Assembly: GCA_001596155.1 (NCBI GenBank)
Contig: CP014771.1
Span: 1,240,001-1,304,000 of the forward strand
Length of the DNA: 64,000 bases
Origin: Hymenobacter psoromatis
Lineage (GTDB): Bacteria > Bacteroidota > Bacteroidia > Cytophagales > Hymenobacteraceae
Direction: 5' to 3'
Positions within the stretch are counted from its first letter, which is position 1; every line of letters starts with the position of its first letter. The notes beneath the pieces were generated by a model. That model was given only the letters and a program-made list of their open reading frames with translations. It did no database searches and was not told the DNA's origin. This document shows positions 6,732-26,123 of the stretch, piece by piece. The position numbers and the translations under genes are program-made.

Positions 6732-7556
6732 ATGTCCGCACCCTCTACGCCGCTTACGCTCGCTGGCCTTTTTATTTATCCGGTTAAGTCATTGGGCGGC
6801 ATCAGCCTGCCGGCTGCCGACCTCACGCCGCAGGGCCTGCGCCACGACCGCCGCTGGCTGATAGTGGACGAGCGCAACCGCTTCCTGACCCAGCGCGAGC
6901 ACGCCGAAATGGCGCTGCTGGTCGTCGAGCCGGCCCACAACGGCTTTTTGCTGCGCCACCGGCAGCGGCCCGCGCTGCTACCCCTCTACATTCCGTTCGA
7001 GGCCACGCCCAAGCGCACGCTTTTCGTCACCATCTGGGATGATATGGTGTTTGCCTGGCGCGGCACCAAGGCCGCCGATGAGTGGCTGAGCGAGGCCCTG
7101 GGCCAGCCTTGCAAGCTGGTGTATATGTCGGACATGGCCCGCCGCGAGTGCGAGCCCGAGCGCAACCCGGCCGGCACGCTCGTCAGCTTTGCCGACGGCT
7201 ACCCCTACCTGCTGGTCACCGAAGAGTCGCTGGCCAAGCTAAACACGCAGCTCACCGAGCCCGTGCCGATGAACCGTTTCCGCCCCAACCTGATACTACG
7301 CGGGGCCGCCGCCGACGCCGAAATGGCCTGGTCTAGCCTGCGCATCAACGACTTGCACTTTCGGGCGGTGCGCGGCTGCGGGCGCTGCATAGTCACGACC
7401 ATCGACCAGGCCACGGCCCATAAAAACCCGGCCGGCGAGCCGCTGCGCACGCTGGCCACCTACCGCAAGCCCGACCAAAAAGTCATTTTTGGGCAAAACG
7501 TGACCGGACCCGTTGCCGGCCACCTGCGGGTGGGCGATGAGGTAGTAGTGAGCTAG
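6732..7556 (+). CDS. MOSC domain-containing protein (YcbX/mARC-like)
   Basis: 274 residues. The N-terminal MOSC beta-barrel (LAGLFIYPVKSLGG, LRHDRRWLIVDE) is followed by the MOSC domain with the conserved Cys in RGCGRCIVTTID. Proteins of this arrangement bind molybdenum cofactor and reduce N-hydroxylated compounds, or deliver sulfur. Here there is no fused ferredoxin domain, so electrons must come from elsewhere. The arrangement MNRFRPNLIL before the Cys is typical of the family. Cytoplasmic. The gene appears monocistronic with its own -7 box immediately upstream. Confidence 0.88.
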   Translation: MSAPSTPLTLAGLFIYPVKSLGGISLPAADLTPQGLRHDRRWLIVDERNRFLTQREHAEMALLVVEPAHNGFLLRHRQRPALLPLYIPFEATPKRTLFVTIWDDMVFAWRGTKAADEWLSEALGQPCKLVYMSDMARRECEPERNPAGTLVSFADGYPYLLVTEESLAKLNTQLTEPVPMNRFRPNLILRGAAADAEMAWSSLRINDLHFRAVRGCGRCIVTTIDQATAHKNPAGEPLRTLATYRKPDQKVIFGQNVTGPVAGHLRVGDEVVVS

Positions 7557-7574: not shown

Positions 7575-7615
7575 TTACGTTTTGGCGCCCGCCAGAACGA
7601 CGCGCCAAAACGTAA
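7575..7615. repeat. Perfect 14-bp-stem hairpin
   Basis: TTACGTTTTGGCGC at 7575-7588 pairs with its complement at 7602-7615 (13-nt loop), just after the MOSC stop. There is no T-run; it may be a terminator or a small palindromic repeat. Confidence 0.5.
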
Positions 7616-7674
7616 AAGCCCTACCCCTCCCATTTTGGCCAACCTCCGGCCCGGCGCGCCGTTTAGGAGGAGCT

Positions 7675-8349
7675 ATGGAAATAGCCTTTGTTCTGGATTT
7701 TTTGCGCCGCCTGGCGGCGAATAACAACACGGTTTGGATGCAAGAGCATCGCGCTGACTACCTGCGTGCCCGCGACAACTTCGTCAGCCTCGTGGCTGAT
7801 GTGCTGCGCCGGGCCACGCCCGCCCTGCCCGAGCTGGCGGGCCTCACGCCGGCGCAGGCCATGTTCCGACTGCATAAAAATGACCGCAGCCAGCGCGACC
7901 CCGAGCCCTACAAGGGCCGCTTGGGCGCGGGGCTGGTGCCGGGCGGGCGCCACGCGCTACGCGCCGGCTACTCCGTGGCCCTGATGCCGGGCGGCGGCTC
8001 GTGGCTGCGGGCCGGACGCTTCCGCCCTATCCCCGCCGAGCTGGCCGCCATCAGGCAGGAGATTCAGTATGATAGTGCTGACTTTCACCGCATTATTACA
8101 GATACGCACCTGCTCCAGCACTTCCCTGCCGGCCTGGACAGGAGTGTAGAGCAGCTTAGCCGACCACCGCGCGGCTACGCTGCCGACGACCCCGACCTGG
8201 CCTATCTCAAGCTCAAAAGCTTTGGCATGGTCCGCCTTTTTTCGGATGAAGAAGTGGTTGCCCCGGATTTTATTGACCGCCTGGTGGCGGGAATGGTGGC
8301 CGCCCGGCCGTGGGTAGCATACCTCAACCAAGCCCTCCTTACCGAGTAG
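7675..8349 (+). CDS. DUF2461 family protein
   Basis: 224 residues. The start at 7675 is chosen because GGAGGAGCT, an unusually good ribosome binding site for this organism, lies directly upstream and the family begins here. The longer frame from 7567 would run through a hairpin. Family features: FLRRLAANNNTVWMQEHRADY near the start, AMFRLHKNDRSQRDPEPYKGRLGAG in the middle, and a C-terminal LKSFGMVRLFSDEEV ... FIDRLVAGM. The function is unknown; the protein is predicted cytoplasmic. It converges on the deoxynucleoside kinase gene with only 12 bases between them. Confidence 0.85.
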   Translation: MEIAFVLDFLRRLAANNNTVWMQEHRADYLRARDNFVSLVADVLRRATPALPELAGLTPAQAMFRLHKNDRSQRDPEPYKGRLGAGLVPGGRHALRAGYSVALMPGGGSWLRAGRFRPIPAELAAIRQEIQYDSADFHRIITDTHLLQHFPAGLDRSVEQLSRPPRGYAADDPDLAYLKLKSFGMVRLFSDEEVVAPDFIDRLVAGMVAARPWVAYLNQALLTE

Positions 8350-18150: not shown

Positions 18151-18630
18151 ATGCCCAACGAGTTTCACCAAAACATTCCGGCCAAAGTGCTCACCGACGT
18201 GCAGCAGCACCTCGACGCCATTAAGGCCGCGCTCGCGCCCTACCTCATCTCCCTCACCCCCGACGAGCGCCGCACCATGCTGCGCATGGCCGACAAAACG
18301 GTGGCCTTCGTGCAAAAAACCAGCGACTACGCCACCACTACCCCCGCCTTCGTGCCGGCCTTCGTGGACCTGGCCGAATTGCAGCAGGACGTGGCCGGCG
18401 TGAACACCCTCACGCCCCTGCGCCAGCAGTTCGAGCAGCTCGCCACCGACACCGACAGCACCGTGATGGTGGCCGGCGGCGAGGCCTACGCCAACTCGCT
18501 CACCATCTACAACAACATCAAGTTTATGGCCAAAAACAAGCAGCCCGGCGCGCAGGCCGCCTACGACGACCTGAGCCAGCGCTTCCCCGGCCGGCCCACC
18601 AAGGCCGCCGCCGCCAAAACCAAGGCGTAA
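18151..18630 (+). CDS. Conserved hypothetical protein
   Basis: 159 residues, no signal peptide. Predominantly helical: NIPAKVLTDVQQHLDAIKAA, then RTMLRMADKTVAFVQKTSDY, LAELQQDVAGVNTLTPLRQQ and YNNIKFMAKNKQPGAQAAYD, ending in a Lys/Ala-rich basic tail (GRPTKAAAAKTKA). I recall similar uncharacterised proteins in Bacteroidota but no functional assignment. Probably cytoplasmic. The start is the first ATG after an AT-rich promoter-like segment. Confidence 0.7.
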   Translation: MPNEFHQNIPAKVLTDVQQHLDAIKAALAPYLISLTPDERRTMLRMADKTVAFVQKTSDYATTTPAFVPAFVDLAELQQDVAGVNTLTPLRQQFEQLATDTDSTVMVAGGEAYANSLTIYNNIKFMAKNKQPGAQAAYDDLSQRFPGRPTKAAAAKTKA

Positions 18631-18650
18631 GCTTCCCAACAAGCAGGTGG

Positions 18651-18691
18651 GGGGTAGTAAAAAGTGGGTCGGACCTACTTTTTACTACCCC
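18651..18691 (+). terminator. Hairpin following the gene at 18151
   Basis: GGGGTAGTAAAAAGTGGGT pairs with ACCTACTTTTTACTACCCC (19-bp arms, one mismatch, 3-nt loop), 20 bases after the stop. The stem ends are CTACCCC motifs. Confidence 0.55.
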
Positions 18692-18885
18692 TCACTTACT
18701 TTTTAGACCCTCGGTGGGTGCTTTTTGGGCGCGGCGGGCACCTTTTGGGGCCGCGCTGCTACTTGTTAGAGCCTCGCCAGCACCTTTTGGAGCCGGGCTA
18801 GGTGCTTTTAGTCCGGCGCGGGGTGCTTTTGCGGGCTCGGCGGTACTTTTTAGGGCCTAAGTGGCACCTTTTAGACCCACGCGGG
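18692..18885. repeat. Degenerate ~21-bp tandem repeat
   Basis: About nine diverged units carry a core GGYACYTTTTRG followed by a GC-rich half, spaced 19-22 bases. Clear cores are at 18717, 18738, 18780, 18801, 18823, 18842 and 18864. Stop codons interrupt all frames I checked. It lies directly downstream of the MmeI-like C-terminal remnant. Confidence 0.6.
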
Positions 18886-18897
18886 CTCCAAAAGCCC

Positions 18898-19200
18898 CTA
18901 CGCGGGGCGGCGCGGGGCGCGCTGGGGCTTGGCGGGGGGGGTAGGGAGCAGGGGGGCTTGCAGCTGCCGGTAGGCCTGGAACAGAAACTCTAGCCGGCTC
19001 AGCTCGGTGGGGAAGGCGGCGGGGCGGCAGCAGGCATCCACGGCGCGGTCGAGGGCGGCGTGGGCGCGCACCAGCGCCGGGGGCATCGTGAGCGGGTCGT
19101 AGAGGGTGGCCAGGCTCTCGGTGCCGAACTCGGCGCGGGCCGCCAGCACCGCCTGCGCCGCCGCTTCCACGTTGGCCGTTTGCTTGGGGGTAGGCAGCAT
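18898..19200 (-). pseudogene. C-terminal remnant of an MmeI-like (type IIL) restriction-modification gene
   Basis: 100 codons. The sequence NVEAAAQAVLAARAEF, then SLATLYDPLTMPPALVRAHA, ALDRAVDACCRP and SRLEFLFQAYRQL matches the extreme C-terminal domain of MmeI-like enzymes. These are normally ~900 or more residues with nuclease, methyltransferase and specificity domains in one chain. An in-frame stop sits immediately before the apparent ATG, so nothing upstream can be fused to it. The N-terminal part of the same family lies on the same strand at 20948-21517. The intervening core is absent and replaced by a SmaI-like system. Probably not functional. Confidence 0.85.
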
Positions 19201-19231
19201 TCAGGCGTTAACTTGCTAAAAAATCATTTTT

Positions 19232-20086
19232 ATGCTCTCTTACCAAGAAGACCAAACCAGTACCTGCGATATTATACTTGGCGATGCCCGGACGGTAATG
19301 AGCAGCTTGCCAGCTGATTCATTTAATACCTGTGTGACCAGCCCTCCCTACTGGGGCCTGCGCGACTACGGCATAGCCGACCAGATAGGGGCCGAAATGG
19401 AGCTTGCAACCTACATTGAGAACCTTGTAAACGTATTTCGGGAGGTCCGGCGCGTCCTACGCCCAGATGGAACGCTCTGGCTGAATATTGGTGATTCCTA
19501 TACCAGCGGCAACCGCACCTGGCGCGATACAGATAAGAAGAATCCCGCGCGTGGGATGTCTTATCGCCCCCCTACTCCCGATGGTTTGAAACCGAAAGAC
19601 CTGATTGGCGTGCCTTGGCGCATTGCATTTGCCTTACAAGCTGATGGCTGGTATTTACGCTCAGATATTATCTGGCATAAACCGAATTGTCAACCAGAGT
19701 CGGTGAAGGACCGCCCTACCCAAGCGCACGAATACATTTTTCTTTTTACCAAATCAGAAAAGTATTATTACGACTACCTGGCTGTTCAGGAGGCCACGAA
19801 TGATAATACTACAAAGCGCAATAAGCGTAGCGTGTGGTCTGTAAACACAGAACCCTATAAGGAAGCGCACTTCGCCGTTTTTCCGCCTAGCTTGGTCGCT
19901 CCGTGTATTCAAGCGGGCAGCCCGGTAGGCGGACAAGTACTTGACCCCTTCTTTGGCTCTGGCACGGTAGGCGAAACCAGCTTGCGCCTACAACGCAACT
20001 GCACTGGCATTGAGCTTAACCCCGAGTACGCGGCCATTGCAAACAAACGCCTGAACAAGGTGCGCCAACCGGCGCTGCATTTGTAA
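19232..20086 (+). CDS. Type II DNA methyltransferase, probably N4-cytosine, of a SmaI-like system
   Basis: 284 residues. The catalytic motif IV is TSPPYW (36-41), the SPPY form typical of N4-cytosine methyltransferases. The AdoMet-binding motif I (DPFFGSGTVGETSL) lies near the C-terminus, around residues 237-250, so the motif order is permuted (IV before I) as in the beta class. It is followed by CTGIELNPEYAAIANKRL. The partner endonuclease is SmaI-like, so the expected target is CCCGGG, protected by methylation of a cytosine; this specificity is inferred from the partner. GC content is clearly lower than in the flanks, consistent with acquisition. The start follows an AT-rich stretch (AAAAAATCATTTTT). 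Confidence 0.9.
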   Translation: MLSYQEDQTSTCDIILGDARTVMSSLPADSFNTCVTSPPYWGLRDYGIADQIGAEMELATYIENLVNVFREVRRVLRPDGTLWLNIGDSYTSGNRTWRDTDKKNPARGMSYRPPTPDGLKPKDLIGVPWRIAFALQADGWYLRSDIIWHKPNCQPESVKDRPTQAHEYIFLFTKSEKYYYDYLAVQEATNDNTTKRNKRSVWSVNTEPYKEAHFAVFPPSLVAPCIQAGSPVGGQVLDPFFGSGTVGETSLRLQRNCTGIELNPEYAAIANKRLNKVRQPALHL

Positions 20087-20101
20087 AGGCTGGCCGACAG
20101 C

Positions 20102-20908
20102 CTACGCCTCGTCTAACTCCTTGATAATAAACCTCCACTCGGCGTGCACAAAGCATAATTCCTTGCGAATTTTATGCACCTGTAATTTACGCTCGGTTCC
20201 CCCATCAAAATAGAGCCGAAACGCTAATTGACCATCGGGCGTGGTAACCCGGCAGTAACCTGGTTTTGGCATTTGCTTACTGTCAGTCATCATCTCTAAC
20301 TCTCCTTGCGCCGCTTGCTCAAATAATGCCACAGGAATTTCTACCAGCTCGTAGCACCAATAAGGTGAAGCAGGAGCGGGGTTACTAGTATTACGCAAAA
20401 CCAAGATTCGGTCGTAGCCAGTTAAATGGCGCATGAACTGGTCACGCAGAAGCATTAAATCCGCTGGTTTATCCGTCCAGTTTCCTTTGCCTAGCTCCAT
20501 GAATTTGTGCAGGCGGATTTCAGTTAGTCGCAGGTTTCGGTCAGCTTGCGTTTTCAAAGATATTCGCTCGCCCGCTACACTGATATCATGCCCAGGATTG
20601 CCGCGTGGAGCCATTGCGGCCACTACACCACACTGTTGCCACACGCGCACTGCGGTATACTCAAATTTATCCTTCGCAAAAGCATCATCCGAAAAGCAAT
20701 GGTGCAAGCGCAAGGCATCACCAAAGTCTTGCAGAAAGCATTCTGTTATCAATCCACTCATAGGATTGACCCAAAATTCCTTTGGCCGGCGAAATTGCAA
20801 AACAATACGCTCCACCCAAATTAATTGCCCTTCGCGCAATTCAGGCAGATAGGTAATAATGCGTTCAATCCGTCTGGTTATTGAATTTGAAGTGCTTTCA
20901 GGTTCCAT
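20102..20908 (-). CDS. SmaI-family type II restriction endonuclease
   Basis: 268 residues, close in size to SmaI. Segments that match the SmaI sequence as I remember it: NPGHDI (104-109), SLKT (117-120), KFMELGKGNW (135-144), DSKQMPKPGY (209-218), LYFDGGTERKLQV (232-244) and CFVHAEWRF (252-260). The first two probably form the D...xK metal site. SmaI cuts CCC^GGG to blunt ends. The gene converges with the methyltransferase gene; only 15 bases separate the two stop codons. Its own -7 box is at 20939-20946. No C-regulator gene is visible. Cytoplasmic defence enzyme. Confidence 0.88.
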   Translation of the reverse strand: MEPESTSNSITRRIERIITYLPELREGQLIWVERIVLQFRRPKEFWVNPMSGLITECFLQDFGDALRLHHCFSDDAFAKDKFEYTAVRVWQQCGVVAAMAPRGNPGHDISVAGERISLKTQADRNLRLTEIRLHKFMELGKGNWTDKPADLMLLRDQFMRHLTGYDRILVLRNTSNPAPASPYWCYELVEIPVALFEQAAQGELEMMTDSKQMPKPGYCRVTTPDGQLAFRLYFDGGTERKLQVHKIRKELCFVHAEWRFIIKELDEA

Positions 20909-20938
20909 TGCTCAGCTATCAGAGTTGCTACGTTATAC

Positions 20939-20946
20939 CAAAGCTA
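20939..20946 (-). promoter_or_regulatory. -7 box (TAGCTTTG on the minus strand) of the SmaI-like endonuclease gene
   Basis: CAAAGCTA on the plus strand reads TAGCTTTG, a full match to TAnnTTTG, 30 bases before the ATG at 20908. It lies between the start codon and the truncated MmeI-like remnant, so the -33 region would fall in remnant sequence. Confidence 0.5.
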
Positions 20947-20947
20947 C

Positions 20948-21517
20948 TTATTCACCTGCCACGAGCAGCACTTCCAGCTTGTGGCCGTGGTAGCCGCCGT
21001 GGAGCAGGGCATCGTGCAGCTCGCCCATCAGCTCGGCGGCCTGGGTGTTGGCGGGGTCTTCGGGGCGGTACGCGCGCTTCTGGTAACCCGTGAGAAAGGC
21101 GAACAAGTGCAGGTGCTCATGCAACTGCGCCAGCCCGAATTCGTGCTCGGTGCCCTCATCGAGGTCATAAAGCCGAAACCGGGCGAAGTCGGAGACCAGA
21201 ATATACTTGGGCAGCTCGTGGTCTTTGAGGCCGGGGAAGTAGTCGCGGGCCTGCTGCCCGGCGCGGTTGAGGCTCCTACCCCGGCTTTTGTGCTCCACCA
21301 GCAGCGTGCCCTTCCACAAAAGGTCGATAAAGCTCTGCTTGCCATCGGCCTTCTTAATGGGCACCTCAAAGGAGGCGACCCGGCGGCGCTTCACGTCGAA
21401 GACGTGGAAAAAGTCAATCCAGAACGATTGGGCATCGGCGCGCTCATCGCCGGCATCCTGCCATTCCTGGGCAAAGCGAATGGCGCGGTCTTTTAATTCG
21501 GAGAGGGAAAGGGGCAT
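20948..21517 (-). pseudogene. N-terminal remnant (nuclease domain) of an MmeI-like (type IIL) restriction-modification gene
   Basis: 189 codons from the ATG at 21517. It matches the MmeI-like N-terminal domain: FWIDFFHVFDVKRRRVASFE, FIDLLWKGTLLVEHKSRG, YFPGLKDHELPKYILVSDFA, RFRLYDLDEGTEHEF and the linker AELMGELHDALLHGG. The PD-(D/E)xK residues are present (Asp65, Glu75, Lys77). Homology stops at LEVLLV (181-186), where family members continue into the helical spacer and methyltransferase. Here three codons and a TAA follow. Truncated by replacement with the SmaI-like system. The fragment could still be translated, but without a methyltransferase or specificity domain its activity is doubtful. 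Confidence 0.85.
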
Positions 21518-21554
21518 GGTGGGGGATTTGGGGGGAAGATAAAGCCCTCCGCGT

Positions 21555-21606
21555 GACCCCACCCCCCGGCCCCCCTGGCCCCTACCCCCTTCGGGAGAGG
21601 GGGAGC
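21555..21606. repeat. Half copy of the CCCCACCCCC...CGGGAGAGGGGG repeat (family G)
   Basis: GACCCCACCCCCCGG through CTTCGGGAGAGGGGGAG resembles one arm of the palindrome at 40235-40355. Confidence 0.5.
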
Positions 21607-21755: not shown

Positions 21756-23819
21756 TTACCAAATGCGCGACCGGTCGGCCGTGGCGCGCACCATCTTGTT
21801 GCCCTCCTTGCAGCCAAAGGCTTCGTAGAACTCGGGCATGTTCATGAGCGGGCCGTTGGTGCGGTACTGGCCGGGCGAGTGCGGGTCGGTCTGGATTTGC
21901 TGGCGCATGGCCTCGGGGCGTTGGTTAGCGCGCCAGATTTGGGCAAAGCCTAGGAAGAAGCGCTGGTTGGGCGTGAAGCCGTCAATTTTCTTGCCTGCCT
22001 TGGCCTCAGCCGTTTTCTGGAACGCCTGGTAGGCGATGGTCAGGCCGCCGATGTCGGCCAGGTTTTCGCCCATCGTCAGCTTGCCGTTCACGTGCACCGA
22101 GTCGAGGGGCGAGAAAGCGTCATATTGCTTGCCCACCATGTCGGCCTTGGCGTTGAACTTGTCGTTGTCCTCCTTGGTCCACCAGTCGCGCAGGTTGCCC
22201 TTGGCGTCGGAGCGGCGGCCCTGGTCATCGAAGCCGTGGGTCATTTCGTGGCCAATCACGGCGCCGATGCCGCCGTAGTTCACCGCGTCATCGGCCTTGG
22301 GGTCGTAGAAGGGCGGCTGCAAAATGCCGGCCGGGAACACGATTTCATTCATGCTCGAATTGTAGTAGGCGTTCACCGTGGGCGGCGTCATGCCCCACTC
22401 GCCGCGGTCAATCGGCTTGCCGAATTTCTGGAGGTTGTCCTCGGTGCGCCACTCGGAGGTGGCAAACAGGTTTTGCAGGGCACTCTGGCGCGTGATTTTC
22501 AGCTTCGAGTAGTCCTTCCACTTATCGGGGTAGCCGATTTTCACCGCGAAGGCATTGAGCTTCTGAATGGCTTCCTTCTTGGTGTCGGCGCTCATCCAGT
22601 CGGTGGCCATAATGCGCTCGCCGTAGGCGCGACGCAGGTTTTCGACCATCTCTTTGGCCTTGGCCTTGGCGGCGGGCGAGAAGGCCTTGTCCACGTAGAG
22701 CTGGCCGAAAGCCTCGCCCAGCGCGCCATCGGTGGCGCGCAGGGCGCGCTTCCAGCGGGGCTGCTGCTGCTTGGCCCCCGTCAGCACCTGCTGAAAGCGG
22801 AAGCTGGCGTCGCCGTAGGCTTTGGGCAGAGCCGAGGTCACGCCCTCCACCAGGTGCCAGCGGAAATACTGGCGCTGGTCGGCGATGGGCGTGTTGGCCA
22901 TCAGGTTGCTGGCGGCGGCCAGGTACTCGGGCTGGCCCACGATGATGTCCTGGGCACCGCTCAGGCCGCTGTCCTTCAGCACCAGCGGAATGTCCAGGCT
23001 GGGGTAGTCTTTGGTGGCCTGGGCCACGGTCATCTTGTTGTAGTTCTTGATGCGGTCGCGCAGGTCCACGCGGCCCCGACTGGCCTGGGCCATCTTGGTT
23101 TCGAGGGCCAGCACGGCGTCGGCGTTGGTGGCGGCCAAGCTCGGCGCGTCGCCCAGCAGCCCGAACACGCTGGTCATGTAGGTCTTGTAGGCGGCCCGGA
23201 TGGTCTTCGAGCGGCCATCTTCCTTGAGGTAGTAGTCGCGGTCGCCGAGGCCGAGGCCGCCCTGGCCCATGCTCACGGCATACTGGGTGCTGTTTTTGCT
23301 ATCCTGGCGCACGCCAAAGCTGTACCAGCCCGTGCCGTACGACTTGCGGTCGGCCATGTACTGCTGAATCTCGCCCAGGTTTTTGAGGTTATTAATCTTA
23401 TCGAGGCGCGGCTGCAAATACTTGAGGCCGGCGGCCTCGATGGCCGTCGTGTCCATCGCGGCGGCGTAGAAATCGCCCACCTTCTGCTCGTTGGTGCCGG
23501 CCTTGGCCGAGCGGTCGGCGGCGGCCTTCACCAGGATGCCTTTTTCCACGGCAACGTTGCGGTCCTGCAGCTCATTGAAAGCACCCCAGCGGGTTTCGGC
23601 GGCCGGCACGGGGTTGTTTTTTATCCAGTTGCCGTTGGCATAATGGTAAAAATCCTCGCACGGCGACACCGACTGGTCAATATTGGCGAGGCTGATGCCG
23701 ACGCCTTGCTGCGGGGGGGTAGGGCGCTTGGCCGGCGGCCCAAAGGCGGTGGTAGCAGCCAGGCCGCCGAGGCCCAGCGTCGCCAGCGCCAACCGGGAGA
23801 AGGTAATGGTGGTGGACAT
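21756..23819 (-). CDS. M13 family zinc metallopeptidase (PepO/neprilysin-like), copy 1
   Basis: 687 residues, normal for the family. A signal-like N-terminus (LALATLGLGGLAATTAFG) is followed by the M13 start region SVSPCEDFYHYANGNWIKNN. The zinc site is HEMTH (His524, Glu525, His528). Substrate-binding NAYYNSSMNEIVFPAGILQP precedes it and ENLADIGGLTIAYQAF supplies the third ligand. The C-terminal RSRIW is typical. Exported endopeptidase acting on peptides outside the cytoplasm. Its paralogue lies upstream on the same strand, and several blocks of DNA are almost identical between them, suggesting duplication with gene conversion. Confidence 0.93.
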   Translation of the reverse strand: MSTTITFSRLALATLGLGGLAATTAFGPPAKRPTPPQQGVGISLANIDQSVSPCEDFYHYANGNWIKNNPVPAAETRWGAFNELQDRNVAVEKGILVKAAADRSAKAGTNEQKVGDFYAAAMDTTAIEAAGLKYLQPRLDKINNLKNLGEIQQYMADRKSYGTGWYSFGVRQDSKNSTQYAVSMGQGGLGLGDRDYYLKEDGRSKTIRAAYKTYMTSVFGLLGDAPSLAATNADAVLALETKMAQASRGRVDLRDRIKNYNKMTVAQATKDYPSLDIPLVLKDSGLSGAQDIIVGQPEYLAAASNLMANTPIADQRQYFRWHLVEGVTSALPKAYGDASFRFQQVLTGAKQQQPRWKRALRATDGALGEAFGQLYVDKAFSPAAKAKAKEMVENLRRAYGERIMATDWMSADTKKEAIQKLNAFAVKIGYPDKWKDYSKLKITRQSALQNLFATSEWRTEDNLQKFGKPIDRGEWGMTPPTVNAYYNSSMNEIVFPAGILQPPFYDPKADDAVNYGGIGAVIGHEMTHGFDDQGRRSDAKGNLRDWWTKEDNDKFNAKADMVGKQYDAFSPLDSVHVNGKLTMGENLADIGGLTIAYQAFQKTAEAKAGKKIDGFTPNQRFFLGFAQIWRANQRPEAMRQQIQTDPHSPGQYRTNGPLMNMPEFYEAFGCKEGNKMVRATADRSRIW

Positions 23820-24065: not shown

Positions 24066-26123
24066 CTACCAAATGCGGGCTTGCTCGGCCGTCGGCCGCT
24101 CCATCTTGTCGGTGGGCGAGCAGCCGAAGGCTTTGTAGAACTCCGGCATGTTCATGAGCGGACCGTTGGTGCGGAACTGCGCCGGCGAGTGCGGGTCGGT
24201 CTGCACCTGCTGGCGGGCCGCTTCGGGGCGAATGTTGGTGCGCCAAATCTGGGCCCAGGCCAGGAAGAAGCGCTGGTCGGGCGTAAAGCCGTCCAGGCTG
24301 GTGCCGCTTTTGGCTTCGGCCGTTTTCTGGAACGCTTGGTAGGCGATGGTCAGCCCGCCGATGTCGGCCAGGTTTTCGCCCATCGTCAGCTTGCCGTTCA
24401 CGTGCACCGAGTCGAGGGGCGAAAAGGCATCATATTGCTTGCCCACCATCGCGGCCTTGGTGTTGAATTTCTCGCCGTCTTCCTTGGTCCACCAGTCGCG
24501 CAGGTTGCCCTTGGCGTCGTACTGCCGGCCCTGGTCATCGAAGCCGTGGGTCATTTCGTGGCCGATTACCGCGCCAATGCCACCGTAGTTCACCGCGTCA
24601 TCGGCCTTGGGGTCGTAGAAGGGCGGCTGCAAAATGCCGGCCGGGAACACGATTTCGTTCATCGGCGGGTTGTAGTAGGCGTTCACCGTGGGCGGCGTCA
24701 TGCCCCACTCGGTGCGGTCAATCGGCTTGCCAAACTTGCCCAGGTTGTCCTCGGCGGCCCAGGTGCGGGCGGCCAGCACGTTTTGCAGCGCGCTCTGGCG
24801 GGTGATTTTCAGTTTGGAATAATCCTTCCACTTATCGGGGTAGCCGATTTTCACGGTGAAAGCATTAAGCTTCACCAGCGCCTCTTTCTTGGTGGCGGCG
24901 CTCATCCAGTCGGTGGCCATAATGCGCTCGCCGTAGGCTTTGCGCAGGTTCTCAATCATTTCCTTGGCCTTGGCCTTGGCAGTGGGGCTGAACGCTTTGT
25001 CCACGTAGAGCTGACCAAACGCCTCGCCCAGCGCGCCGTCGGTGGCGCGCAGCTCGCGCTTCCAGCGGGGCTGCTGGAGCTTGGCCCCGCTCAGCACCTG
25101 CGAGAATTTGAAAGCCGCGTCGCCATAGGCTTTGGGCAAAGCCGAGGCTACGCTATTCACCAAATGAAAGCGCAGATACTCGCGCTGCGTGGCCAGCGGC
25201 GTGCTGGCCAGCAGCTTGCTCACTTCCTGCAAAAACTCGGGCTGGCCCACGATAACCTCCTTGGCCGTGCCGAGGCCGCTCTCCTTGAGCAGCAGCGGCA
25301 CATTCAGGTTCGGAAACTCTTTGGTGGCCTGAGCCACGGTCATCTTGTGGTAGTTGGCTTGCGGGTCGCGCAGGTCCACGCGGCTCTTGCTAGCCTTGGC
25401 GAGCTTGGTTTCGAGGTCCATCACGGCGGCGGCGTGCTCGTTGGCCTGGGCCTCGGTGTCGCCGAGGCGCGTGAAGGTGCCCATCAGATAGGTCTGATAA
25501 GCGGCCCGGATGTTCTTGGAGCGCGCGTCCTCTTTCAGGTAGTAATCGCGGTCGGGCAGCGTGAGGCCGCCTTGATAAAACTGCACCGCGTACTGGGTGC
25601 TGATTTTTTCATCCTGCCCTACCCCCGAATTAAACCACACGCTACCGGCGTGGGCGTGCGGGTCGCCCAGGAAAGCCTGCATCTGGGCCAGCGTCTTGAG
25701 GCCCGCGATGCGGTCGAGGGAGGGCTTGAGGTAAGTCAGGCCGGCCTTTTCGATGGCCATCGTGTCCATCGCGGCGGCGTAGAAGTCACCCACTTTCTGG
25801 ATGTTAGAGCCCGGCTGGGCCGTGGCGGCCTTGCCGGCCAGCTCCTCCAGAATAGACTTCTGGGTGGCGTAGTTGCGGTCGGCCAGCTCATTGAAGCTGC
25901 CCCAGCGGCTTTCGGCGGCCGGCACGGGGTTGTTTTTGAGCCAGGTGCCATTGGCATACTGGAAGAAATCGGCGCAGGGCTGCACCGACTTGTCGATGTT
26001 GGCCGGGTTGATGCCGACACCCGATTGGGCGGTGGTTTGCGCCAGGGCCGGCGGGCCGGCGGCCAGGCCCAGCGCCGCCACGGCCAGCGCCGCGCCCCGC
26101 TGGTAACGAGAGATTTTAGACAT
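24066..26123 (-). CDS. M13 family zinc metallopeptidase (PepO/neprilysin-like), copy 2
   Basis: 685 residues. Signal peptide GAALAVAALGLAAGPPALAQ. SVQPCADFFQYANGTWLKNN opens the mature domain. The zinc site HEMTH is at His522, Glu523 and His526, with NAYYNPPMNEIVFPAGILQP and ENLADIGGLTIAYQAF conserved. It ends in QARIW. Same predicted role as the neighbouring paralogue: exported endopeptidase. The two genes are in tandem with 246 bases between them, holding a REP palindrome and a terminator, so each is probably transcribed separately. Confidence 0.93.
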   Translation of the reverse strand: MSKISRYQRGAALAVAALGLAAGPPALAQTTAQSGVGINPANIDKSVQPCADFFQYANGTWLKNNPVPAAESRWGSFNELADRNYATQKSILEELAGKAATAQPGSNIQKVGDFYAAAMDTMAIEKAGLTYLKPSLDRIAGLKTLAQMQAFLGDPHAHAGSVWFNSGVGQDEKISTQYAVQFYQGGLTLPDRDYYLKEDARSKNIRAAYQTYLMGTFTRLGDTEAQANEHAAAVMDLETKLAKASKSRVDLRDPQANYHKMTVAQATKEFPNLNVPLLLKESGLGTAKEVIVGQPEFLQEVSKLLASTPLATQREYLRFHLVNSVASALPKAYGDAAFKFSQVLSGAKLQQPRWKRELRATDGALGEAFGQLYVDKAFSPTAKAKAKEMIENLRKAYGERIMATDWMSAATKKEALVKLNAFTVKIGYPDKWKDYSKLKITRQSALQNVLAARTWAAEDNLGKFGKPIDRTEWGMTPPTVNAYYNPPMNEIVFPAGILQPPFYDPKADDAVNYGGIGAVIGHEMTHGFDDQGRQYDAKGNLRDWWTKEDGEKFNTKAAMVGKQYDAFSPLDSVHVNGKLTMGENLADIGGLTIAYQAFQKTAEAKSGTSLDGFTPDQRFFLAWAQIWRTNIRPEAARQQVQTDPHSPAQFRTNGPLMNMPEFYKAFGCSPTDKMERPTAEQARIW

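Follow-up and report, generated by a model that had tools for sequence, protein, structure and literature searches.

Genes at the locus

The window, by which is meant the whole analysed stretch of 64,000 nucleotides from Hymenobacter psoromatis (genome G000), is occupied between positions 18898 and 21517 by four ORFs, which the ORF list places where an earlier note on this DNA had put them. The outer two lie on the minus strand and in the correct order for the N- and C-terminal ends of an MmeI-like (type IIL) fused restriction-modification (R-M) gene, as that note had claimed: the ORF at 20948..21517 matches the nuclease domain (PF20464, MmeI_N, 6.3e-49, profile positions 2-180 of 181, scanned with the longer ORF 20948-21562) and the ORF at 18898..19200 the C-terminal domain (PF20467, MmeI_C, 2.5e-28, positions 3-82 of 83). 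Read by eye, the N-terminal remnant contains DLLWKGTLLVEHK, which we take to be a D-X9-EXK nuclease motif, and neither remnant is interrupted by a stop or a frameshift. Both ends thus resemble the corresponding domains of type IIL fused genes, but the window version lacks the spacer, methyltransferase and recognition domains and is no intact single polypeptide, MmeI_N and MmeI_C alone being left on two ORFs. On the PADLOC type IIG model PDLC03598 (912 positions) the two pieces match 3-194 and 833-909, and from these match ends about 638 codons or 1.9 kb (1914 bp) of the host core are missing, in agreement with the claim that some 2 kb of the gene was lost and not merely split.

Between the remnants lie a SmaI-like restriction endonuclease of 268 aa (20102..20908, minus strand; PDLC03562, 2.5e-77), assigned to the SmaI family by a match over the whole length of PF17411 (4.9e-83, 4-240 of 240), and a methyltransferase of 284 aa (19232..20086, plus strand; PF01555, N6_N4_Mtase, 1.3e-52; PDLC03387, MTase_II, 1.1e-125). 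In the latter TSPPYW precedes the FGSGT motif, presumably the beta-type order of methyltransferases. The replacing segment, delimited by the last and first host-matched bases, comprises 1774 bp (19186..20959, no strand) with a GC content of 0.496 as compared to 0.645 in the flanks, so that the methyltransferase and the endonuclease indeed lie on lower-GC DNA. Apart from these two genes and their overlaps the ORF list shows no sizeable ORF in the insert, and hence no recombinase gene. The enzymes themselves are no different from those of SmaI-type type II systems, with which they share the full-length family endonuclease, the adjoining N6_N4 methyltransferase and the avoidance of CCCGGG in carriers described below; what sets the window pair apart is its place in the genome. 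Searches of solved structures with the endonuclease gave nothing at E <= 1, and phage records gave no match.

The locus is marked by its neighbour, gene D (18151..18630, plus strand), for which the Pfam scan yielded no family above cut-off. Gene D is separated from the C-terminal remnant by a terminator-like 20-pair stem (18648-18694) and four imperfect 16-nt repeats (18698-18881). On the far side two similar large minus-strand genes lie in tandem (21756-23819 and 24066-26123), putative M13 peptidases according to the earlier reading. The window contains 64 copies of the octamer CTACCCCC, where shuffles predict 2.14, and the G000 genome 4,727, as compared to 170 for the reversed control. Among the 20 genomes counted, G127 also has 4,351 copies, G053 1,624 and G060 1,106, and the other 16 have 73-239; at about one copy per kb in some lineages only, it is reminiscent of DNA uptake sequences or highly iterated motifs. 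A copy is found at the C junction (19186-19193).

The same locus in related genomes

Was the gene ever intact at this place? Gene D has matches in 44 of 120 genomes of the genus, and wide neighbourhoods were taken for 15 of the 43 genomes other than G000. An MmeI-like gene with a long open frame adjoins the gene D orthologue in four of them (G031, G054, G124 and G136, with 992, 985, 944 and 931 aa), which is what the earlier note had proposed to look for; in G037 the MmeI-like gene beside D is split over contig ends, G012 carries a replaced gene, G044 retains a decayed C scrap, and eight D loci are without MmeI ends by tblastn, one of which (G058) gave a single weak methyltransferase-like match. 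Alignment of the remnants to intact relatives shows host similarity stopping at 20960 and restarting at about 19193-19185, a few bases from the breakpoints proposed before (20957 and 19197). The N-terminal remnant is 94% identical at the amino acid level to that of G012, 90% to G037 and 86% to G105, and the C-terminal one 89% to G105, 88% to G037 and 87% to G012. The replacement model was to fail if the remnants belonged to different MmeI-like subfamilies; G105 and G037 are instead close to both. Since both remnants match one subfamily that occurs intact at this locus, and share strand and order, they are the ends of one MmeI-like gene. The proposal that its core was swapped for a complete, different system is thereby supported.

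In G012 gene D and the N and C pieces are present as well, and between them lie an AAA_21 ATPase (7.1e-30) and a DUF4276 protein (2.7e-12). By the PADLOC HEC-01A/B models and Pfam this cargo, like that of another MmeI-like gene in G101, has the composition of HEC-01, an AAA_21-type ATPase followed by a DUF4276 protein, and is a HEC-01-like, putative defence pair. The borders of the G000 and G012 replacements agree within about 8 nt on the N side and fall in the same codon on the C side, and the two replacements may be one event. The tree of N pieces places G012 beside the G105 gene, which is frameshifted but not replaced (UFboot 89), whereas the C and D trees unite G000 with G012 (63 and 72). 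This conflict, at modest support, is compatible with cargo exchanged by way of the arms or with two separate events at the same spot. The locus stands as a record of replacement, but the earlier description of this record as exact was too strong, as the trees disagree on the sister of G012.

The 37 N-domain matches in the genus (33 near-full, 4 fragments) include five with replaced cores, four near-full ones and the G101 fragment; the rest were classed by frame length and N-C spacing with contig-edge cases set aside, and the MmeI-like genes of G105, G038, G020 and G019 are frameshifted at normal N-C spacing.

Replaced cores in other fused R-M genes

Within the genus SmaI-like endonucleases were found in 4 of 120 genomes (G000, G149, G044 and G127), each time together with the N6_N4-class methyltransferase. 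All four pairs are flanked by the N and C pieces of a fused R-M gene, a different one in each genome, and the endonuclease is always co-directional with the host. In G149 the host belongs to another MmeI subfamily (MmeI_N 5.3e-43, MmeI_C 1.3e-22), its pieces being closest, among the loci compared, to the intact gene of G009 (82% and 97%). The G044 host is a PDLC03609-type gene with pieces at 41-304 and 1008-1064 of the 1066 positions of this type IIG model, and the G127 host a PDLC03621-type gene with pieces at 4-322 and 945-1017 of 1024, the N piece carrying an ISP_coupler domain; the G127 endonuclease has an internal TAG. Conserved cassette ends were considered and discarded, as the ends of the four SmaI-like inserts, compared by eye, have nothing obvious in common of the kind that marks a transposon- or integron-like cassette. 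A sample of the order searched with the Pfam model contained SmaI-like endonucleases in 4 of 390 genomes, three in the genus plus G787, and a sample of the class in 1 of 395, the window's own genome; eight plasmid records matched the query, of which four were examined. Outside the genus none of the five loci inspected (G787 and the four plasmid records) lies in a fused R-M gene, judged from annotation, ORF list or by eye.

Other cargos have entered MmeI-like genes as well. The HEC-01-like pair in the MmeI core of G101 lies on the strand opposite to the host, in G035 an HNH-family ORF (HNH_2, 9.8e-5, barely above cut-off) replaces the recognition part, and in G664, from another genus of the same family, a C5 methylase (1.7e-71) and a NotI-family endonuclease (3.3e-10) replace the core. 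Matches to the G012 cargo amount to 17 in 15 of 120 genus genomes, of which three were inspected; beside the two ATPases most closely related to that of G012 (G036:C420 and G101:C22) no fused R-M pieces were found. A survey of the order, with 241 genomes each for MmeI_N (found in 71) and MmeI_C (found in 49), gave five short-frame candidates outside the genus whose loci were taken: the G664 replacement, a transposase-like insertion in G713, a lone C piece in G716, and G623 and G095 (L171, L176), the last two being left out of the analysis together with L174 and L175. Frameshifts in G700, G062 and G553 are read from coordinates only. Lone MmeI C or N scraps without cargo occur at G044:C197, G022:C27, G101:C28 and G131:C90 and in G143, G138, G002 and G132. 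An ORF that ends in WCVLGLAEHPPLPxGVSDTRLW is found close to the N scraps of G002 and G132 (L156 about 7274-7501, L157 about 7593-7724, L021 8575-8919), and a relative of this ORF is also present upstream of the N piece of G012.

Predicted specificity of the SmaI-like pair

In the DNA stretches of the four SmaI-like carriers CCCGGG occurs twice as compared to 55.3 expected from 5-mers (G000 0/27.8, G127 0/17.0, G044 0/5.2, G149 2/5.3; the counts refer to locus stretches and not to whole genomes), the 64-kb window containing no copy, whereas 20 genomes without a SmaI-like match have 191 for 292.6 expected. Such strong avoidance in carriers suggests that the system probably cuts CCCGGG, as predicted from the missing sites, and that it is not very new there. 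GGCGCC, GGGCCC and CCGCGG are also avoided in G000 and G127. Cleavage at such sites was entertained as a cause of the junctions and dropped: in G000, G149, G127 and G044 the kilobase on either side of the insert is free of CCCGGG, which is uninformative, as carriers are nearly devoid of the site everywhere.

Explanations for the replacements

How could a small R-M system come to lie inside another R-M gene? The explanation we hold to be probable is that the core of an MmeI-like gene gave way to a short foreign segment with the SmaI-like pair, and that the same kind of replacement recurs in other fused R-M genes. An MmeI-like gene originally adjoined gene D, and a segment with a complete SmaI-like R-M pair took the place of its core (roughly codons 195-832 on the family model), the host gene losing its own methyltransferase and recognition domains and keeping both ends. 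The replacement itself, the intact gene at this locus in relatives, the second cargo of G012 and the similar replacements in other fused R-M genes of the family are shown by the sequences. Concerning the mechanism, we infer that a short piece of DNA from outside, bearing one or two defence genes, may be joined illegitimately at two points within a resident fused R-M gene. The cargo could survive there since a fused gene would be dispensable and its endonuclease and methyltransferase would be lost together, so that no unopposed endonuclease would be left. Strains could then exchange the resulting alleles of N piece, cargo and C piece through homologous recombination within the remaining ends, and this would account for the common borders and different cargo of G000 and G012.

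Several regularities run through the eight cases, which comprise three host families and four types of cargo (SmaI-like, HEC-01-like, HNH, and NotI-like with a C5 methylase) and probably represent seven or more independent events. Insert and deletion measure 1774 and 1914 bp in G000, 1860 and 1920 in G012, 1808 and 1875 in G149, 2136 and 2259 in G101, 741 and 1128 in G035, 1860 and 1866 in G127, 1965 and 2109 in G044, and 2209 and 2166 in G664, as derived by hand from the ends of the HMM matches and, for G012 and G664, in part from Pfam coordinates. In seven of the eight the two lengths differ by no more than 8%. Random pairing reached such agreement in 0.18% of permutations (0.0018), or 1.4% without G035, in a test made post hoc after the pattern had been seen and with G000 and G012 possibly one event. 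All eight retain a short 3' piece of some 60 to 125 codons, a pattern noticed after the fact and resting on profile match ends, and the 5' breakpoint is variable; the GC content of the insert is below that of the flanks in every case. One idea for the near-equal lengths is a patch-like, fork-coupled or strand-annealing replacement.

It could be imagined from these regularities that fused R-M genes are docking sites, in which length-neutral replacement of the core leaves a variable 5' and a short 3' piece that subsequently serve as homology arms, turning a dead R-M gene into a platform for cassette exchange. We advance this tentatively, as a conjecture we would not yet favour. Against a general rule stand the SmaI-like loci outside the genus (0 of 5 in fused R-M genes) and the close relatives of the G012 cargo (0 of 2). 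The same loci speak for the opposite possibility, to which we likewise give limited credence, that there is no preference at all: fused R-M genes would offer targets that are large, dispensable and situated in DNA rich in defence genes, small defence genes would land wherever they are tolerated, and survivorship would do the rest. That a transposase-like ORF has landed in the MmeI-like gene of G713 agrees with this. The position of all four SmaI-like pairs of the 120 genomes in fused R-M genes does not; if such genes make up at most 0.6% of the genome (ten 3-kb genes, an assumed and uncounted figure) the chance of four in four is near 1e-9, and with only a tenth of the genome tolerant and the same assumed share it is still near 1e-5. 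The retained short 3' piece and the matched lengths would also be unexpected.

Alternatively, the short N and C forms might have been kept as working genes, for instance as a stand-alone nuclease domain beside the new system, so that the arrangement would be selected and not a scar. In the window both remnants are open, and dN/dS between G000 and G012 is 0.117 for N and 0.244 for C, within the range for pairs of unreplaced genes (0.083-0.213 and 0.170-0.320). Here the clues to age conflict. Intact frames, low dN/dS and foreign GC point to a recent replacement, whereas the avoidance of CCCGGG suggests that a pair cutting this site has been present in these lineages for some time. The lineages may have had the pair before it reached its present place, the short forms may be selected, or the avoidance may have another cause. 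Because of the avoidance the replacement can no longer simply be called recent; intact remnants in an old system are harder to call neutral, and selection on the short forms becomes slightly likelier. We nevertheless regard it as improbable. The 5' breakpoints vary widely (71, 109, 194, 224 and 460 on PDLC03598), leaving no common short protein, in G127 and G664 a stop precedes the C piece, for which no start is obvious, and the methyltransferase and recognition domains are absent. The earlier note had named conservation of the short forms as independent genes as a reason to abandon replacement, and this is not clearly what is seen: the short forms of G012 surround a different cargo and the C pieces just mentioned lack an obvious start, with the low dN/dS pointing the other way.

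A plain insertion that split the MmeI-like gene, with the core lost separately afterwards, is in our view quite unlikely. In G713 a transposase-like ORF (2.6e-7, barely below cut-off) was inserted without large loss, the rest of the gene being apparently retained as judged from unaligned frame lengths (562 and 378 aa), but none of the eight cases has cargo plus leftover core pieces on both sides, insert and deletion lengths agree, and the four SmaI-like inserts, compared by eye, have no cassette ends in common. Finally, a single ancestral hybrid behind all cases, suggested by the common borders of G000 and G012 and possible for that pair alone, is hardly credible and was rejected for the whole set, as the remnants are closest to intact genes of different subfamilies (G000 to G105/G037, G149 to G009, G101 to G019/G020/G022) and two hosts are not MmeI-like.

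Known replacements and implications

That R-M systems move about and take the place of resident genes is known. In Helicobacter pylori hrgC replaced the PabI R-M system and left short ends (78 bp and 88 bp for PabI), and in Campylobacter cuniculorum PabI replaced a type II R gene, according to the passages concerned (PMC4615327). As far as these passages go, there too an R-M gene set was replaced in place with short old ends remaining; the cases in the Hymenobacter family differ in that one fused R-M gene is replaced, by several unrelated cargos, with one cargo in several hosts and with nearly matching lengths. By another account newly gained regions that contain R-M systems are typically of small size and without a link to known mobile elements, the passages being silent on fused R-M genes as landing sites (PMC4176335). 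Searches of open-licence literature turned up no title or abstract dealing with repeated replacement of fused R-M cores. Single R-M replacements are thus already published, and what is new here is their recurrence and the near-equal lengths.

The entry of a small defence system into a chromosome without an integrase of its own is seldom seen. With eight comparable cases and intact relatives as the state before replacement, a preference of entry, length neutrality and swaps aided by the scars become testable. For the annotation of defence systems, genes with MmeI_N only or MmeI_C only should not count as working systems, and newly arriving defence genes may regularly settle in large fused R-M genes.
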